From the NCBI GenBank assembly GCA_016490735.1, contig JAEMWC010000046.1, forward strand, positions 1,116,001 to 1,180,000: a stretch of 64,000 nt of DNA. Direction: 5' to 3'. The DNA comes from Pachyseris speciosa. Taxonomy: Eukaryota; Cnidaria; Anthozoa; Scleractinia; Pachyseridae. Position 1 is the first letter of the stretch. Every line of letters starts with the position of its first letter. A program made the translations under genes and the position numbers. The notes beneath the pieces are model-generated. The model was not told the origin of the DNA and did not search any database. It was given only the letters and a program-made list of their open reading frames with translations. Shown here in pieces: positions 31,640 through 46,201 of the stretch.

Positions 31640-32846
31640 CTTTTTAGTATAAAGTTCCTTCTAAGAGACAAAGTTTGCGCACGTCACGCCGTAAAACCGA
31701 AGAAGCTGTCCTGACTAAGACAATTCCGTGTTTGTCTGGGAACACTTCCTGCACAATCTCTTTTGGCCAGCGACCGCGCGGAGAGGCGACAAGGACGACA
31801 AGGACTACGTCACCAACTGCTAAGTTTGGGCGAGGACGAAGTCATTTCTGCTTTAGCTGAAGAGTTGGTAAATATTCGCGAATCCATCGCTTCCAAAATA
31901 CATCTGCCAAGTAATGGGCTTGCTTCCAACGTTTAGAGGCATACGACACAACACGTTCCGAACCACTTGGGGACTCACAAACGTTTGGGCGAAGTAGCAG
32001 CAATTTGCTTGGAGTCAAGGGGTCGAGGACCTTTGGATCGCTAGACGGCGGCGTAAGAGGACGATCGTTAAGGATCTTCTCAACCTCTGCCATGAAAGTA
32101 AGGAGAGTCTCATCATCAACCAACTGTTCACCAAGGAGAGAGGGAAGAATCTTGCGTATGGAGCGAATAATTCTTTCCCAGATTCCACCTGCGTGACTTG
32201 CGGAAGGTGGGTTGAAATGCCACGACACTCCTCATCCTCTGAGACACTTGTCGATTTGGTCAGTGTTTCATTTCTCCATAGCTGTTCGTATCTCCATTTC
32301 TGCTCCTCTAAAGTTAGTTCCATTATCGCTGAAGACTTCAACTGGTGATCTACGTCTACTAACAAACCTGGTGAAGGCTTGTATAAACGAATCGCTAGAT
32401 AAGTCGTGCGCAATCTCAATATGCACTGCACGGACAGCTAAACACGTGAACAGGCAACCGTATCTCTTCACATGACTTCGTTTCATCTTGACGAATATTG
32501 GGCCGAAGTAATCCACTCCCACGGAAGAAAACGGAGGCGATTGCGGAGTCACTCTGGAACTGGGAAGAGGAGCCATCACTTGTTCGCATGGCTTAGCATT
32601 CCATCGTCGACATTTGAAACACTTGCCAACAACACGCCGAACAGCTGCATGTCCTTGTAAAATCCAAAATTTGCGTCTAATGCTGGTTAAGACCTGACTT
32701 GCGCCCACGTGGCCTTCTGCTTCATGATACTGTTTGATGATCAGGTCGGTGACGAAACACCTGCCGGGCAGGACCATTGGGTGCTTTGCATCAAAGCCAA
32801 TTGGAGCTCTCTCAAGACGTCCTCCCTCACATATAACCCCGTTATG
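31640..32846 (-). pseudogene. BEL integrase (HHCC, DDE core, DUF5641 tail)
   Basis: Integrase half of BEL pol. HHCC zinc domain (YHEAEGHVG ... CFKCRRWN), DDE core with VGVDYFGPI (Asp), VFSDNGTNF (Asp) and [11 protein letters not shown] (Glu), then a DUF5641-type tail. The frame changes near 32250, between the second Asp and the Glu, and a TGA near 31842 interrupts the tail, whose downstream part (PNLAVGDVVLV) is still readable to about 31690. Would integrate the cDNA if intact. All three catalytic residues are visible. Confidence 0.85.
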
Positions 32847-33340
32847 AGTAGTATACTATGTTGTTTTTACTCCGTTTTGGTGTCGAGCCAGGTCGAGTTA
32901 GGTCGAGTTAGGTCGAGTTAAGTCATAAATATGTATAAGCTGGGTTCCCCTTGAGTCGAGCCAGGTCGAGTTAGGTCGAGTCAATGACGTCACCTATTGT
33001 AATAACCTAGGGAAAAAATGCGTTCCTCCATACTAATTAAGTGCCTAGGTAAAATTGCGTTCCTCCATATCATACTAATTAAGTGCCTAGGTAAAAATGG
33101 GTTCCTCCATACTAATAAGCGTCGCTCTAGTACAATAAAAACAATAGACTTGCCCAGAGTTGCCCGGTCTATGTTCACCCTGATTGGTTCATGTAGAATC
33201 TATTCTATCTTCCAAATAAAAGCGGGTAGATTTCGAAAGCGCTATCGTTCTTGCAATCGCTTCGCTAAGGAAAATTTATATCCGAGATTATCGTTCGATT
33301 TTCCGAAAGTGTTAACAGTTTCGCCTATAAAAATAAATTC
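32847..33340. repeat. Mini-Polinton left TIR, outer part
   Basis: Pairs in reverse complement with 42590-43052. Contains clusters of the 10-mer GTCGAGTTAG (32880-32925, 32955-32985) and repeated TGCGTTCCTCCATACTAATT units (33020-33110). Ends where the LINE inserted. Confidence 0.9.
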
Positions 33341-33600
33341 TTTTTTTTTTTTTGCACATTTTATTGGAAACATAGAACATAGATTTACAACAATAACATA
33401 TTACTACACTTCAAGAAAATAACAAAGGATAAAGTCACTTTAAAGAAAAAGAAACGAAAATTAATCACTACTCTTAAACAATAATCACCCGCGCACGCGG
33501 ACACCGAGAGTGGATATTGATGCAAATATAACTTGGATACACCTTGCAAACTATCGACTTATGTTGCAACTGCCGCAATTATAAACTCTTACGTGAAGAC

Positions 33601-36600
33601 TTAAGGTAGAGGGGCCCTTCTATTAAAACGAGACCACTTTTGTTGGAATGCTTTCCTAGTGTTGTTCCCAGAAGCTATTTGTCTTTCAACATTCATAGAA
33701 TTTATAACTTGCTGTATGAAAACCTCCAGCCTAGGAAGGGCATTTGTTAACTTGCAGGAGTAAATATAATATCTCGCAATAAGGAGTAGGTGATGAACTA
33801 GCAGATCAGATATTTCGTCACTAATGCCCAGACAAAGAGGCGAGGAGAGTTGAAGGTCCTTCAATCCGCTAAAATTTTGTGATATCCATTGGAAAATTTC
33901 CTCCCAAAAGGCCATTGTATATTTACAATTCCAGAAGAGATGGATAAGGGTTTCTGTAGTTTCTTCACAAAAGGAACAACTGTCGATTTGTTTTAATCCT
34001 ATTTTAACGAGAAAATCGTTAGTAGCAATCCTTCTATGCAGGAGCTTGAATTGAAACACTCTAAGCTTTGTTTCTCTCGTACATAAAAAAGGCAACCGAT
34101 ATGTATTTTTCCAACTGACAGTGGATATTCCGAGTACTTCCCCTTGAGATAACCATTTCTCCTCGCTTCTTTTTGGGTTGGAAGCTCTCTTTTGAATGAG
34201 AAGCCGATAAAGCTCTTTAACAACCTTCGGTGAAGACTGGACAACCTCAATGACACCTTTTGGACATGGCCTATTGATATCCGGTGAACAGAACTTCTTG
34301 AAGTATTTCAAGGCGGACACAACTTTGTAGTATTCGAAGTAGTTAATGTTTATTTTAAATTTCGCTGCAAAAGCAGCATAGCTCAGAAAATTTTGCTCAT
34401 TGTCCAACAGATCTTCAACTGTTTCCACACCTGCATCTAACCACGATTTATAAAAAAAGGGTTGATTTCCGATTCTAATCATCGAGTTATGCTAGATTCG
34501 GGAGGAGACAAATTCCAAATTCTTATCTCTATAGTTTAAATTGGACCAGAATTTAACAATCTCTTTTAGGAATGGATCAGTTATATTAAGCCTTGAGGCG
34601 TCCTGCCATTTTAAATTACCAAGAAACAATAGCTTCCCTCCATATTTTCCTAGATGGTAATCAAAAAAGAGCTTCCATTTACCTTGGTTATTATCATCTA
34701 AATAACCTTGAATCCATTTTAATTTTAACGATTCGTTAAAGCTATGAACGTCAATCATTTTAAGACCTCCCTTATCATAGTCATTAACGATTTCAGTCCT
34801 TTTTATTTTGTCGCCCTTGCCATCCCAGAGGAATTCATACAGCGCAGAGTTTATCTCTTTTAGGACACCTGGAGGTGTTGGGAGAGAAGACAGGACATAA
34901 ACAGCCTGAGATACCGCCAAACTTTTTATAACTGCAATCTTACCCAAAAGAGTGAGTCTCCTGATAGACCACCTGTTTAGCCGGAATCTTCTTCAATTTT
35001 TCAATTTTGTCAGACAGGTTAGCCAAGACGGCATTTTTTTCTGCTGCCGAGAACCATACTCCTAAGGCGTAGACCTTTCCCTCAGCCCATGTTATTGGGT
35101 TATTTACGGGTAGCTTAACGTTCGAATTTCGACATGAGCCGATCCAGAGGGCTTCGGTCTTCTCATAGTTGACTTTTAGGCCAGAAGGGAGCGCAAATGT
35201 ATCGAGCATATACAGAGTTCTAGAAAAGGATGTTTCACTGCCATCCAAAATCATTGTTGTATCGTCTGCATATTGTGATATTTTGCATTCCGTTCCAAGG
35301 ACCTGTATGCCACGGACTTTTTCATCCTTTCTTATTGCACTACCTAGTATTTCTGCACATAAAATAAATAAATAAGGGGAAAGTGGACAACCTTGTCTTA
35401 CTCCACGACTCAAGGTGAAAAAGTCTGATGCCCAGCCGTTGTTCTGTATGCAGCTGCTAATATCGGTATAGAAAAGATTTACCCAAGCCACTAGGGACGA
35501 TCCGAAGTTGTAATAGTCTAAAGTTTTTTCGATGAAGGACCATTCTAGGCTGTCAAAAGCCTTCTCAAAGTCCACGAATAATAGTAGACCTGAAATTTGT
35601 TTTTCGTTTGTGTAATTTATGATGCTATCTATCAGCCTAATATTTTCTCCAATGAATCTGTTTTTCATAAAACCAGTCTGATCATTATTGATTATTTTTG
35701 GTAGGACTTTTCGTGTCCGGCTAGCAATAGCTTTAGCGGCTATTTGATAATCACAATTGAGAAGAGTAATTGGCCTCCAATTCTTTAAAACATTCGTAGC
35801 TTTGTTCTTTTTGGGAATGAGGGAGATCAAGCCCCTCCTTTGAGTAATTGATAACAAGCCCTTTGTATATGCGCTATTTAAAGCATTTATTAAGTAAGGA
35901 TGGATATCGTTCCAGAGAATTTTGTAAAATTCGGCTGGTAGGCCGTCACTCCCAGGGCTTTTACCTATTTCCATATGTTTCAAGCTTTCCAAGCATTCAG
36001 TCTCCGTTAACAAACCTTCACATTCTCTCTGCTCGAACTCGTCTAAAGTTAAAGTGTTTCCTTCCGGAAAGAAAAGTTCCTCGCTGACTTTAGAATATGG
36101 AGGGTTACTCGAGGTGTATAGGTTTTGGTAAAAAGATTTCGCTTCTTCAAGAATCTCACTATCGTTATTAATGATTCTGTCATCGGCTAACTGTAGATGT
36201 TTAATAGTCTTTTGGTTAAAGTGACGTTTCTCCAGAGATAAAAAGTATTTCGTGTTCTTCTCTCCTTCATTATACCAGCGGGATTTGGATCTTAATATTG
36301 CCCCAGGAGTTTTATGTTTTAAGATCTCTTCTCTTTGGAGGATTTTGAGGTTTAATTGATTTGATATTTCTTTTCTACGGCTTTCGGTAAGATTATTTTC
36401 TTCCAGTCTCTTTTGAAGAGACAGTATATCAGATTCAAGGCTTTCTTCCTCCACTTTCATTTTAGCTTTCTTTTTCCTCGCGTAAATTATCGAATTTGAC
36501 CGTATTTGCATTTTCATGGTGTCCCACAGGAGAACAGCGTCAACCTCATTGTTATGTTCATAATCGTTGGCTACTTCAGCAATTGTGCTCTTCATTAATT

Positions 36601-37372
36601 TGACATATTCCTCGTCTGACAGGAGAGAAGTATTTAACTTCCAAAAACCCGGTCCCCTAGGGTTTTGATTGTGTGCAAGATGTAGAGTCACAAGAGAGTG
36701 GTCGGTTTTATATCCAGGTAAAATGTCCGCTTCAGTAGTTTTTGTGTGAAGACTCGTGCTAGTTAAAAAGAAGTCCAAGCGACAGTGCACTTCGGGATTA
36801 CTTCTTCTCCAAGAAAACCTTTTAGCGTTGGGATTAAGGATGCGCCAAATGTCTGTGAGATCGAACAGATCCATTATATAGCGGACTACTTTCAGCGAGT
36901 TAGTATGGGTCACTGGGTTACCTCCTTTTTTGTCTTTTTGTACATCCAACACCAAATTGAAATCCCCTCCAAAGACTATATCCTCACATTCAAAGGAGAG
37001 AAGCTGGGAGAGAACCGTCCTAAAAAAGGTCGGATTATCATCATTTGGTGCATAGATATTCACTAATGTCAGGGTTTTGTTCTCCATTTTGATGTCAACT
37101 ATAATAAACCGTCCGTCTGGATCAGCAAATTGTTTTAACAATTGAAACTCAAAGTTGTTATTGAAAAGCATACACACTCCAGCACTTGCACTGGAGTAGC
37201 TGCTGAAAATAGCTTTAAACCCCCATTCTGATAACCAGTAGACTTCTTTCTCTTTCGTGCAGTGAACTTCCTGCAGAAAATATATTGCATATTTTTTTAA
37301 CTTAAGCCAGCGAAAGGTCTCACCCCTTTTCAAGGTGTTCGACAGACCCCTCACGTTTAGAGAACAGATCAC
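33601..37372 (-). pseudogene. LINE ORF2: endonuclease, reverse transcriptase, zf-RVT
   Basis: APE-type endonuclease at the N-terminus (LNVRGLSN, LQEVHC, GGDFN, SDHSLV-type ending KTDHSLVTLHL), then RT with GSDGLPAEFYK, a LLFVDFEKAFDSLEW palm motif, GVRQGCPLSPYLF and SQYADDTT (YADD). After a one-base frame change near 34955 the reading continues with TLLGKIAVIKSLAVSQ. A TAG at 34494-34492 then interrupts the frame; beyond it the last part carries CSFCEETTETLIHLFWNC, a zf-RVT finger. Only these two lesions separate the copy from an intact ORF of roughly 1255 codons. The protein nicks the target and reverse-transcribes its own RNA in place. Confidence 0.88.
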
Positions 37373-37688
37373 TATTTCTTCCGCGACAAAGGTGTTAATT
37401 GGAACTTATCATAAACAAAAGAGTGTTGAAGCGGCAACGATATGCATAACAATCGATACTTTGCAAGATAAAACAAGAATAAAAACAAACCAGCATTGTA
37501 TAAGAAAAAGAAAACAAGGACATATATATACACAGCTAAAACAGGGCTAAACATAAAACGGAAAGGGTAAAATTCCTTCTGGGTTGGGGATACATATCCA
37601 TCAAGTTAGTAACATATGTGAAGGGGCATGATCATGATTCATTTAATATGTAGCAGGAACACTGGTTGAGGAAAGCGGCGATGATAAT

Positions 37689-38549
37689 TTAGTAAGAGGC
37701 TTTAAGATCATCGGGGATGTTTCCCACATGAAAGACTTGATTGTCCACAATGAGATTTCTATTAACTACTCTAGCGTCCAAACCTTTTTCCTTTGCTTTA
37801 AACATCGCCTTTATTAGAGTCTTTCTTTCCATCTGAACCGCTCTTGCATAATCTTGTGTGATGTACGCGTCCTTGTATTTTTCAGATTTCTTCAGCTTGT
37901 TTTTTGCTTTCAATACATAATCTCTGTCTTCCCTAAGAAGAAATCGAGCGATAATGGGACGTGGAGAGGCCTTAGCTTGTTCGTTAATGGCGGGGCGAAC
38001 CTTCCCAACTCTGTGCACCGCTTGAAATTGGATGTCGTCCGTGCTGATTTTCAATTCATTTTCGATAATGTCATAGACTGTATCGATGCAGTTTTCCTCT
38101 GTTTGTTCTGGTATATTCATGAATCGAAGGTTTTCTCTTCTGGGGTAGGTTTCCAGGGCAATAACTTTCTCTTGCTCCTCCGCTAGCTTCATTTTTAACT
38201 GATCGATTTCAACTCGCTGGTTATCCAGTTGTAGCTTGTTTCTTTTTAATCGGTTAATTTCTGTTTGTTGGCTCTCCAGATCCCTGTCGGATTTTTCTTT
38301 AGAATCGCTGACATCTTTCAGTTGCGTTTGGATCTCGCCGATTACGGCCCATGCTGTTTCAACTGATTTTTCCATTTCTGCCATGTTGTTTTTGACACCT
38401 ACGATTTCTTCTTTTAGCTCGTATCGTAAAGTTGACAACTCCGTACTTAGATTTCCAAATAAGTCCTCCAATCTCTTGTCCAAGTAATTTAGTTTATCTA
38501 ATAAGTGCGAAAGGGATACTGACGGTTCCGAGTATTTCTCGTTTACCAT
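37689..38549 (-). CDS. LINE ORF1 (L1-type RNA-binding protein)
   Basis: 286 codons, uninterrupted. Coiled coil over about residues 15-135 (heptad-rich, with NRLKRNKLQLDNQRVEIDQL), then an L1 ORF1-type RRM/C-terminal region with YPRRENLRFMNIPEQ, HRVGK, RPIIARFLLREDRD and VNRNLIVD. Trimerises and binds the LINE RNA in the family. Separated from ORF2 by 316 nt. Confidence 0.85.
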   Translation of the reverse strand: MVNEKYSEPSVSLSHLLDKLNYLDKRLEDLFGNLSTELSTLRYELKEEIVGVKNNMAEMEKSVETAWAVIGEIQTQLKDVSDSKEKSDRDLESQQTEINRLKRNKLQLDNQRVEIDQLKMKLAEEQEKVIALETYPRRENLRFMNIPEQTEENCIDTVYDIIENELKISTDDIQFQAVHRVGKVRPAINEQAKASPRPIIARFLLREDRDYVLKAKNKLKKSEKYKDAYITQDYARAVQMERKTLIKAMFKAKEKGLDARVVNRNLIVDNQVFHVGNIPDDLKASY

Positions 38550-38825
38550 TTCGTCGTTCTTAAATCTGCGGGAAGGTGGAGACTCTGTCGAAGATGAACT
38601 TGTCGAGCGCTCAGAGCGCTTTGCAATTAACGGGGAATGTCAGATTCAAAAAAAGATGCAATGGCGAAAGTTGTGTTTGGTAAAAATCAGCCTGCTTCAG
38701 ATCTTGTGCGCTATTTGAGAGAACATGGCCTTCACCTGGATGTGGGATCACAGAGCGACTGGAACACGACCGTACGCCATCACTGTCTCCCCAGTCCCCA
38801 TAAAAAAATAATAAAAAATAAATTC

Positions 38826-39092
38826 TTAGCTAACTTTTTTTCGTTTTCCGCTCCGTTAGTCACTAATTATTCAAACTGCCCTATATTTGCATACAAACTC
38901 TAAAGTATAAATGCCCATGGGAGAACCTTCTACCATTCAACAACGACACTAGACGGCTTAAGTTGTTTGGAACGATCAATATAAACACGCGACTAATATA
39001 AATTAAACGTTTCTTGAGAGACAAACATAAACTTTATTGCCTTTTCTCAGGGAATACAGAAACAATACAGAAAGTGATTTGAAATGAATAAA
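38826..39092. repeat. Mini-Polinton left TIR, inner part
   Basis: Pairs with 42300-42589. On the minus strand contains GGCAATAAAGTTTATG (about 39025-39040), a poly(A) signal for the minus-strand genes that end at 39130. Confidence 0.88.
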
Positions 39093-39129
39093 CGTCCGTC
39101 ATCCTCTTGAACTTCGTGTGGAGGAAAAA

Positions 39130-39498
39130 TCAATCGTCTTCATCTTCGCTTGGAAGATAATGACTATTCTTAAAAGTTTCTGAATCAATGTGTTTCACTG
39201 CGTGACAATCAGCGCAGCAAATAAATCCATCCGTCGAGTGTTTACGATCAACAGGAATTTTGTATGCGCAAATCGGACAAGTCTTATAACCATGCCAGTG
39301 GCATCTTGGGCATTTCACTACTGCAGTTTGGTAGATGTTTCCTCCGTTACAATGGTAGCAAGAGCCTTTTCCTTGACGCAAAATCTCTGGACTTGCGCTC
39401 TCTTCAGAACATTCAACGTCTGAATTTCCTTCATGTTCCAAATTTGCAGGGTTTTCGGTTTCTCTGCCATCTTCAACATCACTGCTTTCGGAAACCAT
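39130..39498 (-). CDS. Mini-Polinton Cys-rich zinc-ribbon protein
   Basis: 122 codons, intact. Acidic N-terminal half, then CYHC, CPRC, CPIC and CADC pairs within about 45 residues, giving probably two zinc-binding knots, and an acidic tail SEDEDD. No named family recognised. Last gene of the minus-strand set, 15 nt after the previous one. May bind nucleic acid or act as a regulator; this is a guess from composition. Confidence 0.7.
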   Translation of the reverse strand: MVSESSDVEDGRETENPANLEHEGNSDVECSEESASPEILRQGKGSCYHCNGGNIYQTAVVKCPRCHWHGYKTCPICAYKIPVDRKHSTDGFICCADCHAVKHIDSETFKNSHYLPSEDEDD

Positions 39499-39513
39499 TT
39501 CTAAATCACCAGC

Positions 39514-39939
39514 CTAACCTTCTTCATCTCGATAGGCTCGTTCTTTTTCCATTAGCTCAGCCAAAGTTTTCTTATTCTTTATATACCGTTTATTAATTCC
39601 TAACTCTGCCAACCCGTCTATAAATGTTTTGAGGGCGCGGGGTTTGGCAACCTCGTCGTTATAAGGGAGTAACACATATTCAACCAGCTCTGAGATGTTG
39701 GTCACTGGTATTATTCGCTGGTTTCGAAGTAACTGTCCACGAGGTGTCCAAAACAAGATATCCTTGGAAGCCGCCATGCTGTGTAATAAATCGGAGGCCT
39801 GTTGTCTGGAAACAGCTTGGGAAAGTCCTTCTAAAACATCTTTAATTCGAGGTTCTTCGTCATCACTTTCCTCTTCACTTGTGTTAGTGTCATCATAATC
39901 ACTCTCTTCCTCTTTATCCCAATCGACTTTTCTCTTCAT
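39514..39939 (-). CDS. Mini-Polinton conserved acidic protein
   Basis: Start ATG at 39939 (MKRKVDWDKEEES); the track of codons upstream lacks an ATG. About 141 codons. Acidic N-terminus (EEESDDEEPRIKD), then a compact segment with SMAASKDILFWTPRGQLLRN and an ELVEYVLLPYND stretch. I know similar proteins from cnidarian genomes next to ATPases of this kind, without a known function. Intact. Confidence 0.7.
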   Translation of the reverse strand: MKRKVDWDKEEESDYDDTNTSEEESDDEEPRIKDVLEGLSQAVSRQQASDLLHSMAASKDILFWTPRGQLLRNQRIIPVTNISELVEYVLLPYNDEVAKPRALKTFIDGLAELGINKRYIKNKKTLAELMEKERAYRDEEG

Positions 39940-40002
39940 ATTGACCAGCAATCGCTAACGACAAGAACCAACTGAACACACTACAGAGTAGTTCGCGATT
40001 TT

Positions 40003-40335
40003 TTATAAGATTAGGGGCCCCAAGCTAGTTACAACTGGTATCAACAAATCTTGAATAAAGCCTCCACCCTCTTGAGCAAGGGTTTGCTTCTTTGTCTTGT
40101 AATGAATACTTGGCTCAGCAAGATTAAGAATGGCATCCTTGAATGGAATCATTTTACGCTTATCTTCTTCAGAGACTGGAATATTTCCACGAAGCACATT
40201 ATAAATAATTTGCACTAATGCGTGCATCTGTTGTGGAGTGGCTGTTTCTAGGAGAAACTGACGCTGATGTTCAGGGCAACAAGTTAAGATTTCAAGGAAA
40301 CCGCGATTGTTCTTTACTACTCGAGACATGGTCAT
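40003..40335 (-). CDS. Mini-Polinton small protein with GGGF motif
   Basis: 110 codons. N-terminal SRVVKNNRGFLEILTCCPEH helical domain, then QEGGGFIQDLLIPVVTSLG with a hydrophobic end. The GG-x context resembles the cleavage sites of adenovirus-like proteases and the membrane-lytic or virion-associated small proteins of adinto-/Polinton-like viruses. That link is inference, and no protease gene is present here. Intact. Confidence 0.65.
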   Translation of the reverse strand: MTMSRVVKNNRGFLEILTCCPEHQRQFLLETATPQQMHALVQIIYNVLRGNIPVSEEDKRKMIPFKDAILNLAEPSIHYKTKKQTLAQEGGGFIQDLLIPVVTSLGPLIL

Positions 40336-40388
40336 AGAATGAATTAAGGATAGTAGGCGCCAGTATTTTATAGAGAGCCCAGCTTAAT

Positions 40389-40633
40389 TTACGACCAAAG
40401 TTCAAAGTCGTCTTGGTCTTGATCCAACACAACTGTTTTTCCTTTCTTCCCTGGAGGTAAACAACGAAACTGCACTTTTCTTTTTGTAGAACTCTGACCA
40501 CTCCCAGCCTGAGATACTAGATCACCAATAGCTTCTCTACTTCGCTTTGCAAGCGCTGTGTTCACATGATCTCCATCAAGAACATCTTGAGCGACTTGAG
40601 CACCTGTTTGTAGTGCCTTTTTCCGGGTACCTT
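40389..40633 (-). pseudogene. Mini-Polinton virion-type basic protein, C-terminal part
   Basis: Readable from KKALQTGAQVAQDVLDGDHV through AKRSREAIGDLVSQAGSGQ and a basic STKRKVQF stretch to TAA at 40391-40389. Upstream the frame meets a stop near 40630 and then the GGT minisatellite, so the N-terminus seems lost or moved to another frame. Composition recalls core/minor capsid proteins of Polinton-like viruses. Low-level identification only. Confidence 0.55.
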
Positions 40634-40649
40634 AGCACCTTGTTTCAGG

Positions 40650-40812
40650 TGAGGTGGTGGTGGCGGCGGCGGTAGTGGTAAACAATAGAATTGTGGTGGT
40701 GGTGGTGGTGGTGGTGGCGGTAGTGGTAAACAATATAATTGTGGTGGTGGTGGTGGTGGTAAACAATAGAATTGTGGTGGTGGTGGCGGTGGTGGTAAAC
40801 AATAGAATTTTT
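40650..40812. repeat. GGT-rich minisatellite between the divergent gene sets
   Basis: Four units of (GGT/GGC)n + AAACAATAGAATTGT with a 35-45 bp period and variable GGT number. The G-rich strand is the plus strand. Sits between the two gene sets, next to a CTATATAATTG string at 40826-40836 that may serve as TATA box. Confidence 0.9.
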
Positions 40813-40861
40813 GTGCTGATCAAGCCTATATAATTGTGAACATGACACATTATGTCAGTTG

Positions 40862-41599
40862 ATGTTAAGCTTCGATTCAGTTGACATGAGTTGGTCCTGT
40901 CCTGTTTGTCAAAAGGTTTTTTCCAGAAAAGATTGTATGCAAAGACACATGAACAGTAAACACAGTTATTCCGGTTTCGCTCCAGTTATACCGATGTCTC
41001 AAGAAAAGTGTCGGCGGTTTCAAATGCTTCACCCATTTACCTGCATGGTTGCAGGGATGACTGGCCCGGGAAAAACGTTCTGGGTGCAATCAATCTTGCA
41101 ACAAGCTCAAACCGTGATCGATCAGCCACCGGAGAGAATAATCTGGTGTTATTCAAAGTGGCAACCCGCTTACACCCAGTTATTGATGGTGATACCGACA
41201 ATCGAATTTGTCAAGGGGATTCCGCCTTCTCTAGACAATGATTCCTATTTGGATATCAACATACGCAACTTGATTGTCATCGACGACCAAATGATTGAAG
41301 CAGGGAGTGATAATCGGATCGTGAACCTGTTTACAAAAGGATCCCATCATCGAAACCTGAGCGTTATTTACATTGTACAAAATCTGTTTCACCAAGGCAA
41401 AGGCAACCGAAGCATCAGCTTAAACAGTCATTACTTGGTCCTTTTCAAGAATCCTCGGGATAAACTGCAGATTTTGACTTTAGCCAAACAAATGTACCCA
41501 AGACAAACTGCTTTGTTTTTAAAAGAGTACGAAGAAGCGGTGAGAAGACCGTTTGGGTATATTTTTGTTGATCTCAAGCCAACGACTCCAGATAGTTAA
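40862..41599 (+). CDS. Mini-Polinton packaging-type ATPase with N-terminal C2H2 finger
   Basis: 246 codons from the ATG at 40862. N-terminal finger CPVCQKVFSRKDCMQRHMNSKH (residues about 12-33), then a P-loop ATPase: Walker A GMTGPGKT, Walker B NLIVIDDQM, and a conserved SVIYIVQNLFHQGKG (sensor/arginine region). This fits the A32/FtsK-HerA-type packaging ATPases of Polintons and related viruses, which drive DNA into capsids. A fused zinc finger is a feature of the cnidarian group. The proline in GPGKT is unusual (normally small residue). Ends at TAA in frame with the next ORF, so the protein was probably longer. Confidence 0.82.
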   Translation: MLSFDSVDMSWSCPVCQKVFSRKDCMQRHMNSKHSYSGFAPVIPMSQEKCRRFQMLHPFTCMVAGMTGPGKTFWVQSILQQAQTVIDQPPERIIWCYSKWQPAYTQLLMVIPTIEFVKGIPPSLDNDSYLDINIRNLIVIDDQMIEAGSDNRIVNLFTKGSHHRNLSVIYIVQNLFHQGKGNRSISLNSHYLVLFKNPRDKLQILTLAKQMYPRQTALFLKEYEEAVRRPFGYIFVDLKPTTPDS

Positions 41600-42235
41600 A
41601 GATTGCGAACAAATGTATTACCTGGCGAAGAAAGATTCGACAAAGCGTTCGAAGAGAGTAACATTTCCAAGGAACTGCTCCAGTATCTCAAGCAGCAAAC
41701 CCAGATGGTTCCCCCGGTAATTCCGGAGATGCAGCACATTCAGAATAATATGGATAACCTTCTGTATCGTACAAACCTTGGAGACGACGAAAGAGCGAGG
41801 CAGTACATGCAGTTGCAAAACAAGTTTTTAACATATAAACACCAGTTCAATTCCTTAACACCTGAAGCAAACATTCTGCCTCAACCTCAAGGGCGAGAAC
41901 ACATTTCTAACGAGGCTATGGTAAACAATTTGCCAACAGTGCCACCAACTCCAGCTCAAGCGCCAGCACTTGAACCAGCGGTAAAGGAACCAGCCCCACA
42001 TCCCTTATCTACCATGGCAACCTCCACGCTCGCACCTCCCTCCCTCCCTCCGTCGATCTTGACACCCCCTCCCACAGTCGAAACGCTGTCGCCAGCAAGA
42101 AAGCGTAAACGCCCACAATTAAAATTTGTAAATTACATGGACGATGAACCGAAGAAGCTTTCAAGACGATCTCGACGTTTACACAGGAAGTCACCTTACA
42201 AGTATTCTAAATATCAACGATTGATTGCATCCTAA
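41600..42235 (+). CDS. C-terminal extension of the ATPase ORF (after in-frame stop)
   Basis: Same frame as 40862-41599, separated only by TAA at 41597-41599. Begins RLRTNVLPGEERF, has a helical region with LLQYLKQQTQMVPPVIPEMQ and RTNLGDDERARQYMQLQNK, a Pro/Ala-rich linker, and a basic end (RKRKRPQLKF ... KKLSRRSRRLHRKS). Either an unannotated separate gene or, more likely, the C-terminal half of one polypeptide cut by a nonsense mutation. The basic tail could bind DNA or mark a virion protein. Confidence 0.65.
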   Translation, partial: RLRTNVLPGEERFDKAFEESNISKELLQYLKQQTQMVPPVIPEMQHIQNNMDNLLYRTNLGDDERARQYMQLQNKFLTYKHQFNSLTPEANILPQPQGREHISNEAMVNNLPTVPPTPAQAPALEPAVKEPAPHPLSTMATSTLAPPSLPPSILTPPPTVETLSPARKRKRPQLKFVNYMDDEPKKLSRRSRRLHRKSPYKYSKYQRLIAS

Positions 42236-42299
42236 TTTCCTGATATTTTGTGCTAAGCATTTCGTAGTTGTTGGAGCTTTCGTTGTCAATAAATGTATT

Positions 42300-43052
42300 T
42301 TTATTCATTTCAAATCACTTTCTGTATTGTTTCTGTATTCCCTGAGAAAAGGCAATAAAGTTTATGTTTGTCACTCAAGAAACAACGTGTAATTCATATT
42401 AGTCGCGTGTTTATATTGATCGTTCCAAACAACTTAAGCCGTCTATTGTCGCTGTTGAATGGTAGAAGGTTGTCCCTTGGGCCTTTTTACTTCAGAGTTT
42501 GTATGCAAATATAGGGTAGTTTGGATCACTAGTTTTGAATAATTAGTGACTAACGGAGCGGAAAAGTTAAAGTTAGCTAAGTGGAATTTATTTTTATAGG
42601 CGAAACTGTTAACACTTTCGGAAAATCGAAAGATAATCTCGGAGATAAATTTTCTCAGCAAAGCGATTGCTTGAACGATAGCGCTTTCGAAATCTACCCA
42701 CTTTTATTTTGAAGTCATAATAGATTCTTGACTAACCAATCAGGGTTAAAAAAGATCGGGCAAGTTTGGGCAGGTCTATTGTTGCTATTGAACTAGAGCG
42801 ACGCTTATTAGTATGGAGGAACCCATTTTTACCTAGTTAGCTAGACACTTCATTAATATGGAGGAACGCATTTTTTCCCTAGGTTATTACAATAGGTGAC
42901 GTCATTGACTCGACCTAACTCGACCTAACTCGACCTGGCTCGACTCAAGGGGAACCCAGCTTATACATATTAATGACTTAACTCGACCTAACTCGACCTA
43001 ACTCGACCTGGCTCGACACCAAAACGGAGTAAAAACAACATAGTATACTACT
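42300..43052. repeat. Mini-Polinton right TIR
   Basis: 753 bp, inverse of 32847-33340 plus 38826-39092, diverged by roughly 8-10% by eye with small indels. Contains GGCAATAAAGTTTATG at 42350-42365, the poly(A) signal for the plus-strand genes. Confidence 0.9.
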
Positions 43053-44091
43053 GTTATGGATAAATGGGCTAAGCTTTCGTAACGGACTAAGGTAACCAAC
43101 ACATGCCAACTTCTTCTTGGAAGATCGTGAACGGCTTGAATCTGGTGAATTTGCTAACTGCTTTTCAGACAGCATTTCTAACTCCTTTGGAAAGGTATGC
43201 ACTTGAACAATTCGGACTATTGTTCTTGTTGCTTTGGAAATGTCTCCAGTCGTCAAGCTGCCTTTACGAAGTGGCACCTTGGACACACGCGACCGTAGGT
43301 ATTCCCTGAAACGTAGCAACCAACCAAAGGATGCTTGAAGCTTGTGAAAGGAGGAATATCTCCCAAGTAATTGCTCTAGAATATCTTCTCTCATCACAAG
43401 GTAGGTTTGTGGCTTTCCCCTTTTCAGTTCCCGGTCTTCTTCACAATAATCAGGTATTTGGGTTGGGGGTTGTGGCCATTCACTTTCATCTTTGCGGAGG
43501 AAGGCTGGTCCTTTGAGCCAAAACTCTAACTTCTCTGTTTCAAGAATTGATAGTCCACGGGAGGCGTAGTCTGCTGGATTTGATTGTGAATCCACGTAAT
43601 GCCATTGAGACGGCAAGGAAGCATCATGAATTAATGACAGCCTGTTGGCTACGAACGTTTGAAACCTCCTTGCTTCATTCCGTATGTACTGAAGGACTAT
43701 TGTGGAATCTGTCCAAAACACTGCTTTGTGGACTGGCAGATCGAGTTGGTCATCAAGGAACTTGTGCAACTTCACAGCAACGGTCGCAGCGGTCAACTCC
43801 ATTCGAGGGATCGAGATGGCCTTCAAGGGTGCCACTCGTGACTTTCCAAGGAGTAGTCCACTGTGAACATGACCTGAAACATCCACGAGCCGGATATACG
43901 AAGCTGCTCCGTATCCTTTCTCGGATGCGTCACTAAAATGGTGAAGCTGGACATTATGAAGTTCGCCAAACCCTTGAGGCATCAGACAGCGTGGCCAGCT
44001 AACAAGCTTCAGTTCCGGAAGATTCTCAACCCACTTGCGCCAACTCGTTAACCTTTCATTGGGAATTTCGTCGTCCCAGCCGTAGTCTTAC
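43053..44091 (-). pseudogene. BEL RNase H and connection domain
   Basis: RNase H with HHFSDASEKGYGAASYI, MELTAATVAVKL, FWTDSTIVLQYI and SNPADYASRG, i.e. the four catalytic acidic positions. Continues toward integrase until the Polinton-like insertion at 43052. A TAA in frame lies near 44090 just upstream. Confidence 0.85.
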
Positions 44092-46201
44092 TTACACAAT
44101 TCTTGGAGGAGCATCTTGGCTGGCAAAACAAGTGGTGCTGCGAAGCCTAACGTACAAGCCGGATACCAAGGACAGTATTCCCCTTCTCGTATCTGGGACT
44201 TGTTTCTCGGTGATTCGAAAGCTTAGTGTGTCGTTCTTGACATCCCATTGGGTGCCTAAAGCTCGATCGATGGGCAAGTCATCAAGATCCAGGCTCATCA
44301 CAGATGGTGACCGCTCGGCAACTGGTATGGACTCAAGGACTTCCCGGTGGCTGCTTACCCACTTCGTAAGACGAAAACCGCCTTTGGAAAGCAGATCTGC
44401 CAATTGCGGCACTAGGCTTTAGGAACCGTGGAGACCGATTTCAAGCAATCATCAACATACAAGTTGCGGTTCACTGTGTCAACTGTTTCGACGTCAAACT
44501 CACTCTGGTGGTCATGCGCTGTTCTCCTGAGAGCAAAGCTTGCACAGCAGGACGATGACGTGGCGCCAAACAAATGGACCAACATCTGATGATCGACGAG
44601 GCCGTTAGCTGGATTGCTGTCTTTCCACCAAATAAAACGTAGGGCATGACAATCGTCTGGTACAACAAGTACCTGGTGGAACATTTGCTCTATATCCGAC
44701 ATCAACGCTACGGGTGCTTGCCGGAATCTCAGTAAGACACCTGTGAGATTATTCGTAAGATCGCGTCCTTGGAGGAGTTGATCATTCAAGGATGTATCGC
44801 AAAATCTGGCTGCACAGTCGAACACAACTCTTACTTTGCCTGGCTTTTGGGGATGAAAAACAGGATGATGGGGCAAATACCATAGTGGTTTGGCAATAAC
44901 ATCAACTTGGTCTTCTGGAACCATCCTGGCGTGGCGCTTTGAGATATAGTGATCAATCGTCAATCTATACTTCTCAAATAGTGATGCGTCTTTCTGGAAG
45001 CGCTTCTCAAGGAACCTCATTCTGCGCACAGCGACATCACGGTTATTCGGCAGGCGAGGAGACTTGAAGCGCCACGGGAGAGGTAATTGGTAATGACCGT
45101 TTCTCGCACAAACTGAACCTTCCAGAATGGCCAGGGCTCGTTGGTCTTCAACTGATATGGCTTGTTTAGAACAAGATACAGATTCGTTGAAGTCTGCGTC
45201 ATACAGCCTCTTCAGCTGACTTGAGATCATTTCTTGACCAGCACTTATAAAGTTAACGTGCACCTCGGAACTCTTTCGACAATCCATAGGACCAATAAGT
45301 GTCCACCCTAGAAGCGTACGGACTGCATACGGCTGTTTTCTTTTACCGCATCTTTGTTCGAACACCCAGTGTGCCTCAGGGTTGTCGTTACCGATCAGGA
45401 TATCCACCACCTTGCCTTCAAGCTTCGGAAATTCAATACCTCGCAAGTGAGACCATCTTCGAACATCTTCATCGGAAGGTATATTCTGTCTGGAGACTGG
45501 GAAACGTTCGACTGTCCACACTTTATCCAAATGTATGCTATCATCTGACTTGAGAGCCTTCACATTTAATTCCACTTTAAATCCACTTCTTGGACGGTCT
45601 TCCTCGTTCACAGTCGTAAGAGAAAACGTTAGAGGCTTCCCTGACAAACCCAGGCCTTGAGCCAAACTATGGGAACAGAGAGTGATATCCGAGCCATCAC
45701 CTAGGAAAGCGTACGTTTCTATCTCGGGACCGCCATTTGTGCCACTAACTCTCACAGGAACTATTCGCAGGCTCACACGAGGCTTTCCGGAACCAATAGC
45801 TGCACACTGGCCCTCAACACTATCACTGCCAACATTAACCGTACTGCTTTCAACAACGGAGTCTGCTGCATCTCTGCTAACAGGTTGGTTCTTCCTTCAG
45901 TGATCCTCTCCCCGTGAGGAGGATGTAACAGTGAGTGATGACGTTTTCCACATCCGCTAAATAGACACGCTCTGAACAGCCTGCACCGCCTTACGAAATG
46001 GTTTTCCTTCAAACAGTTCACACAAAGTCTCTTATCCATCACAAACTTCTTGCAATCTTCGAATGACTTGTCTCTGAACTTGAAACATCGCTCTAGGTCA
46101 TGGTTACCCTGGCAGAACAGACAGGTAGTCATAAACTCACGCTGACTTGCATTTTGTCTCCAGCCAAGAGCTTTCTGAGGACGTGGGGGTATTGGCACCA
46201 T
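44092..46201 (-). pseudogene. BEL zinc knuckle, protease and reverse transcriptase
   Basis: Zinc knuckles CLFCQGNHDLERC and CVNCLKENHFVRRC (46100-45980). Then a DUF1758-type aspartic protease whose catalytic motif reads FLGDGSD, so the expected D-S/T-G Asp appears replaced by Gly. The RT has VFDCAAR, VALMSDIEQMFHQV, QMLVHLFGATSSSCCASFAL and LYVDDCL (YVDD). One base is missing near 44412 and the frame changes again near 44140, so pol is not translatable as one protein. Gag-to-pol passage is by frame change near 46190. Confidence 0.85.

Follow-up and report, generated by a model that had tools for sequence, protein, structure and literature searches.

A multi-copy mini-Polinton that keeps packaging-type genes, a candidate satellite of full-length Polintons in the same genome

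The window analysed here, a 64,000-nucleotide stretch of contig JAEMWC010000046.1, contains at positions 32847 to 43052 one copy of a Polinton-like family of elements about 5 kb long, called minis below; full-size, capsid-bearing Polintons of the same genome are called helpers. The 14-bp inverted termini at 32847 and 43052 have no mismatches to the 14-mer, the 6-bp target-site duplication (TSD) GTTATG is present on both flanks, and self-comparison gives terminal inverted repeats (TIRs) of about 750 bp, built from inverted repeats I1, I3, I4 and I6 (outer) and I2, I5 and I8 (inner). The left TIR arm is interrupted by a long interspersed nuclear element (LINE) of about 5.5 kb, without which the 10,206 bp reduce to an element of about 4.7 kb. 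The features of the element are as follows.

32841..32846, no strand: left TSD, GTTATG
32847..33341, + strand: left TIR, outer part (inverted repeats I3, I4, I1, I6)
32882..32983, + strand: subterminal iterons with the 10-bp unit GTCGAGTTAG, in two clusters (32882-32924 and 32955-32983)
38828..39092, + strand: left TIR, inner part (inverted repeats I8, I2, I5)
39130..39951, - strand: acidic/Cys-rich gene, here in two pieces (39130-39498 and 39514-39951), a single open reading frame (ORF) of 270 amino acids (aa) in L015
40003..40335, - strand: GGGF gene, 110 aa
40386..40640, - strand: basic gene, reduced in the window copy to a 3' remnant by loss of its first half; the protein has 141 aa in relatives
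40862..41599, + strand: packaging-type ATPase with an N-terminal C2H2 finger, the frame ended by a stop; relatives continue to 455 aa
41600..42235, + strand: C-terminal extension of the ATPase ORF, Pro-rich and basic
42300..43052, - strand: right TIR, with iterons at 42908-42944 and 42975-43017
43053..43058, no strand: right TSD, GTTATG

Less decayed copies of the mini hold four genes, encoding the ATPase (455 aa), the GGGF protein (110 aa), the basic protein (141 aa) and the acidic/Cys-rich protein (270 aa). L010, L011 and L016 each retain an open ATPase frame of 455 aa; the window copy is decayed, with three of its four genes broken. A preliminary description of this locus had reported the exact termini, the GTTATG duplication, the TIRs of about 750 bp and the body of about 4.7 kb, all of which were borne out by the terminal match and the self-comparison. 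Its five proteins give way to four genes on the evidence of the ORFs in less decayed relatives, where the separately listed ATPase and "basic virion-type protein" form the single 455-aa ORF, and the separately listed acidic and Cys-rich proteins the single 270-aa ORF. The real basic gene had been overlooked since the window copy has lost its first half.

The mini ATPase, represented by L016, matches the Pox_A32 profile (1e-4) with 22.3 bits, just under the Pfam cut-off of 22.8, and the helper ATPase (C703, C625) exceeds the Pfam cut-off for Adeno_IVa2 (4.4e-5). Motifs that we take to be Walker A and Walker B are retained in the ATPases of L016, L010, L014 and L015. A search of the PDB with the mini ATPase profile returned zinc fingers and one P-loop protein, none of them convincing; viral_contigs contained no relatives of the mini ATPase or of the basic protein, and PHROGs yielded nothing useful. 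A match of the GGGF protein in viral_contigs (L029) was rejected as chance, as the frames of that contig look like those of a bacterial phage.

The mini ATPase has at least 153 matches in the 984-Mb genome (best 150 of 2329 candidates scored), and the 150 listed represent 147 loci, partial copies counted. Twenty loci of 9.9 kb, picked from the best and from weaker ATPase matches, were compared together with the window copy, giving a sample of 21 copies that is biased to those bearing an ATPase. Both ends were read in 11 fetched copies, 10 of them 4.5-5.9 kb long and the other (L022) 6.5 kb. Recognisable termini with perfect, differing 6-bp duplications bound 8 of the 21 copies (GTTATG, CATGTT, AAAGAG, TCTGCT, GACCTC, CTTGGG, AATGTG and TTCCTC, the last three read by eye), and five of six duplication positions agree in three further copies. 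The ATPase, basic, GGGF and acidic genes are all present in 13 of the 21 copies, so that the short gene set is recurrent in the family. None of the 21 copies matches the PolB pieces of the helper C822, the helper capsid, the helper protease or the helper integrase C-terminal frame, which includes a chromodomain and was the only integrase query used; nor is an integrase-core match among the Pfam matches listed for the mini genes. The earlier statement that the element encodes no polymerase, integrase or capsid thus holds for the 21 copies and these queries. The outer termini vary among mini subfamilies and consist mostly of iterons of about 10 bp with differing units. One copy (L018:2168-7734) is a head-to-head inverted mini with a perfect TSD and a TIR of 2.7 kb, of which the arms are 98% identical and each contain the ATPase gene, one copy oriented opposite to the other; two ATPase pieces are also arranged head to head in L027 (C978:36700-46600). 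Such inverted minis may be products of strand switching during replication.

The genome also contains capsid-bearing Polintons of 12.9-15 kb. One of these, C822:30644-45654, is a 15-kb Polinton with termini as in the window element and the TSD AACAAG, which agrees with the relation to a larger Polinton proposed in the preliminary description. It encodes a chromodomain frame (3.3e-13), an ATPase and a capsid with double-jelly-roll matches; the chromodomain frame is read as the C-terminus of an integrase, and no integrase-core match was found in it. The helper PolB pieces reach no Pfam PolB model, and PolB was called by eye from motifs (DTDS, which we take to be PolB motif C). By sequence the helper capsid has no match in Pfam or PDB; its model has matches in BFVD to a capsid-type protein of an adintovirus and to adomavirus LO7. 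Helpers C703 and C625 have an open 243-aa ATPase frame of their own, and two helper ATPases are 90% identical to each other. A finger-coding frame overlaps the start of the helper ATPase in C822 and C703 (it is broken in C625), and the fused C2H2 finger therefore does not clearly count as a novelty of the mini. A recognisable terminus was found in 7 of 13 helper ends fetched, from elements with capsids 82-95% identical to that of C822 (94-95% in five of the seven). Other Polinton families in the genome have capsids 26-34% identical to that of C822 and long open PolB frames.

The genes of minis and helpers are related and deeply diverged. Identity between their ATPases is 47% across the whole alignment and 47-56% in local matches (C822, C703, C625), and synonymous sites are saturated, with a proportion of synonymous differences (pS) of 0.92 for the ATPase and 0.75 for GGGF. 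GGGF has its homologue in the protein that adjoins the ATPase of the helper (30% over 107 aa, E 6e-21). The acidic/Cys-rich protein contains one domain related to a protein of the helper (25% over 75 aa, E 3e-5), and the N-terminal half of the latter is in turn related to part of the ATPase extension (30% over 57 aa, E 5e-6); the basic protein is 69% identical to its helper homologue. The mini was accordingly rejected as a deletion copy, the alternative named in the preliminary description, of the Polintons of which the ATPases were read (C822, C703, C625); it is possible that a parent Polinton family lies among candidates beyond the best-scored ones (150 of 2329 were scored for the ATPase, 95 of 383 for the capsid and 80 of 2628 for PolB). 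None of the 147 mini ATPase loci lies within 29 kb of the 79 capsid places listed from the best 95 candidates, or within 110 kb of the 65 PolB places listed from the best 80, a list from which the C822 family is absent; for that family, the direct match of its PolB pieces to the 21 minis served as the PolB test. As a positive control, the six closest pairs of capsid and PolB, all belonging to other Polinton families, are separated by 6.6-9.1 kb. Within these lists, the pattern that the preliminary description named for a deletion copy, with relatives all of 15-20 kb carrying PolB and integrase, was not borne out.

Several minis share their ends with particular helpers. When nucleotides 15-110 of eight helpers (including C822) and 15 minis were compared, 7 of the 15 minis (the window copy, L012, L013, L015, L020, L023 and L027) matched a sampled helper at 0.88-1.00; a shuffled control of 300 trials gave a mean of 0.15 and a maximum of 0.57. 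The window end scores 0.98-1.00 against C822 but at most 0.53 against any other fetched mini, and its outer left TIR (32847..33341) shares 98% identity with the end of C822:30644-45654 along 223 bp. Similarly, the L013 end is 99.5% identical over 202 bp to that of helper C625, as against 87-91% to those of minis L020 and L023, the ends of which are nearer each other (0.95-0.96) than any sampled helper. Both termini that were searched genome-wide, the window type and the L013 type, also bound capsid-bearing elements. The L013 terminus bounds a 5.46-kb mini and elements of 14.7 kb (C625), 13.4 kb (C62), 12.9 kb (C8) and 9.0 kb (C1544, C2236), all five of the larger ones with a capsid gene, as well as pairs 17.7 kb (C1069) and 9.2 kb (C576) apart with no capsid among the matches listed.

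A second shared segment is internal. In all six minis tested, a 366-bp patch that begins some 35 codons before the end of a helper 158-aa gene and runs into the basic gene shows 87-95% identity between mini and helper; in L015 the basic gene differs from that of the helper with a pS of 0.18 in the first 70 codons versus 0.49 in the remainder, and a fossil tail (about 33 aa) of the 158-aa gene is present in 14 of the 21 minis. The mini is read as a mosaic in continual exchange with helpers, both at its ends and in this patch. Helpers, too, seem to swap end modules with one another, because near-identical capsids (94-95% identical to that of C822) are paired with quite unrelated subterminal repeats.

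All four mini genes are coding and show purifying selection on internal branches. Changes were counted on trees of 17 (ATPase), 13 (basic), 11 (acidic/Cys-rich) and 14 (GGGF) copies, and the omega-like ratios on internal branches are 0.42 for the ATPase (P 1.8e-5), 0.19 for the basic gene (P 1.4e-8), 0.45 for the acidic/Cys-rich gene (P 0.0042) and 0.28 for GGGF (P 0.00081), versus 0.81, 0.67, 0.74 and 1.09, respectively, on terminal branches. Internal and terminal branches differ by Fisher tests for the ATPase (0.006), the basic gene (0.0005) and GGGF (0.004); conversion with helpers may have influenced the result for the basic gene. Plain pairwise ratios of nonsynonymous to synonymous rates (dN/dS) are 0.31-0.47.

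We interpret the mini, with a probability of about 0.62, as a multi-copy satellite that Polintons of the same genome mobilise in trans, the full-length Polintons with the same termini being its plausible helpers. Its parts acting in cis are the TIRs, the subterminal iterons and the 6-bp duplications, with termini near-identical to those of full-length Polintons in several subfamilies; the shared ends suggest that helper PolB would replicate the mini, that helper integrase would insert it, and that the helper would supply capsid and protease if the mini is encapsidated. Its own parts are the diverged packaging-type ATPase with its C2H2 finger and three small virion-type proteins, all helper-related, for which homology suggests a role in packaging. 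As the helper owns an ATPase, that of the mini is hardly there to complete the helper, and specificity for its own DNA is the simplest reason for keeping a second, diverged packaging module. Most likely, the ATPase and the three small proteins would load the short genome, and not that of the helper, into helper capsids, much as phage satellites redirect packaging. Dependence would be upheld by recombination: outer TIR modules match their counterparts in particular helpers, and the beginning of the basic protein, which presumably must fit the helper capsid, stays helper-like. The preliminary description had proposed a satellite with its own packaging motor; the short gene set, the shared ends and the selection agree with this, and the motor itself is a prediction from homology. 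A fuller formulation is put forward tentatively: the mini might be a satellite virus of Polintons in a eukaryotic, probably animal genome, with its own packaging motor and three cargo proteins, that borrows replication, integration and capsid, swaps subterminal iteron modules with its helpers and converts the capsid-facing part of one protein to helper sequence, its ends forming an evolving helper-recognition code that could be read within a single genome.

Several observations weigh against a satellite that packages itself. Four minis (L011, L018, L019, L028) match their best helper at just 0.72-0.76 and four others (L009, L016, L021, L022) have no partner terminus in the helper sample (at most 0.64); second-best helpers of evidently different type score up to 0.70, and only seven minis were therefore counted as matched. 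At least one of the four genes is missing in 8 of the 21 copies, among which L014, L025 and L027 have assembly gaps, that of L014 at the site of the missing genes. The putative function of the mini ATPase is suggested by weak profile matches, its structure model is of low confidence (pLDDT 34), and its Walker A motif is altered in L028. Terminal branches also lie slightly below neutral for the ATPase (P 0.047), the basic gene (P 0.027) and the acidic/Cys-rich gene (P 0.043), so the selection test is imperfectly calibrated, and internal and terminal branches of the acidic/Cys-rich gene do not differ (Fisher 0.13). Selection could act via a role other than packaging. There is no evidence of virions, transcription or present-day movement.

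The mini could instead be an ordinary non-autonomous Polinton, on the shared ends of which helper polymerase and integrase act, its genes being roleless leftovers as in a long miniature inverted-repeat transposable element (MITE). Ends held in common with full-length elements, genes broken in many copies, and elements of 1.1-3.1 kb with the same ends, so that ends alone may suffice for spread, all accord with this; we consider it unlikely in view of the less-than-neutral amino-acid change of all four genes on internal branches and the 455-aa ATPase frame still open in three copies. A split virus genome, with the mini as one segment providing an ATPase needed by the helper and the full-length element as the other, would likewise account for the termini in common, but is very improbable, as helpers C703 and C625 have their own open ATPase frame and the remaining three mini proteins have relatives in the helper as well.

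The main rival, which sequence cannot separate from the satellite interpretation, is interference: the ATPase and virion proteins would jam helper assembly as dominant negatives, and the mini would be a parasite or a defence factor that is itself unpackaged. All four mini proteins are related to helper proteins, as jamming would have it, and the helper-like start of the basic protein suits a decoy as much as a partner. The Walker A and B motifs kept in four ATPases (L028 being the altered one) are unneeded for jamming, however, and interference is given the same low probability as the roleless leftovers.

The element lies inside a BEL/Pao-type retrotransposon, which it splits, with the integrase and peptidase parts on either side; BEL/Pao elements are retrotransposons of animals. 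The LINE in the left TIR, presumably L1/Tx1-like, is a later insertion and not part of the mini. It matches RVT_1 (2.5e-36) and Exo_endo_phos (5.3e-8), its reverse transcriptase region is spread over several frames, and a short direct repeat was read by eye at both of its borders. The GGT-rich minisatellite between the two divergent gene groups varies widely in length among mini copies (about 1 kb or more in L020) and is perhaps a promoter region. These features are placed as follows.

31842..32846, - strand: host site, integrase part of the BEL/Pao-type retrotransposon (Integrase_H2C2, 4.9e-10, at 32271-32777)
33342..38827, - strand: LINE (ORF1, endonuclease, reverse transcriptase) in the left TIR, borders approximate
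40653..40809, + strand: GGT-rich minisatellite with units of 33-48 bp
43053..45776, - strand: host site, Pao peptidase (Peptidase_A17, 4.1e-25; 42981-43982 tested), the rest presumably being the retrotransposon's upstream part

MITE-like elements with the same termini, sized at 1.1-3.1 kb from paired inverted ends, also exist and are perhaps a third tier under helper and mini. They are located at:

C67:692227-694755
C385:97131-99058
C71:1665015-1666958
C71:1507085-1508978
C25:54342-55467
C1278:147684-148967
C1087:228627-231733
C841:55147-57441
C36:23425-25684
C1542:65349-68245

Polintons are taken as viruses and, to our knowledge, have hardly been seen as particles. If the satellite interpretation is true, an element that conserves packaging-type genes without a capsid would point indirectly to the formation of Polinton particles and to a packaging specificity worth parasitising. 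The matched termini of minis and helpers make helper recognition testable, by asking which helper protein co-varies with iteron type. Should the host contain particles, the genomes of mini and helper are expected together in them.

The accessible parts of the literature searched, including PMC6431247, PMC11071308, PMC10120064, PMC4028283 and PMC10680173, gave no prior description of a Polinton derivative that keeps a packaging ATPase without a capsid; the original Polinton paper (PMC1450207) and the adintovirus paper could hold one. Krupovic et al. 2014 (PMC4028283) describe nine capsid-less Polintons from which the protease and the ATPase were both missing as well, in contrast to the mini, which keeps its ATPase although the capsid is gone. 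With Polintons/Mavericks in general, the mini shares 6-bp duplications, long TIRs, a putative packaging-type ATPase, related small proteins and, in several subfamilies, the ends of full-length elements, but it differs from them in that its copies have no match to PolB, integrase, protease or capsid. Adintoviruses and adomaviruses, to proteins of which the helper capsid model is similar, are complete viruses, whereas no capsid gene was found in the mini. Virophages and transpovirons are, like the mini, small DNA elements that lean on a larger DNA virus; virophages, however, encode their own capsid, and their helpers are giant viruses and not Polintons. Phage satellites such as PICI and P4 are similar in strategy in that they use helper capsids and carry packaging-specificity genes of their own, but they are prokaryotic and terminase-based.

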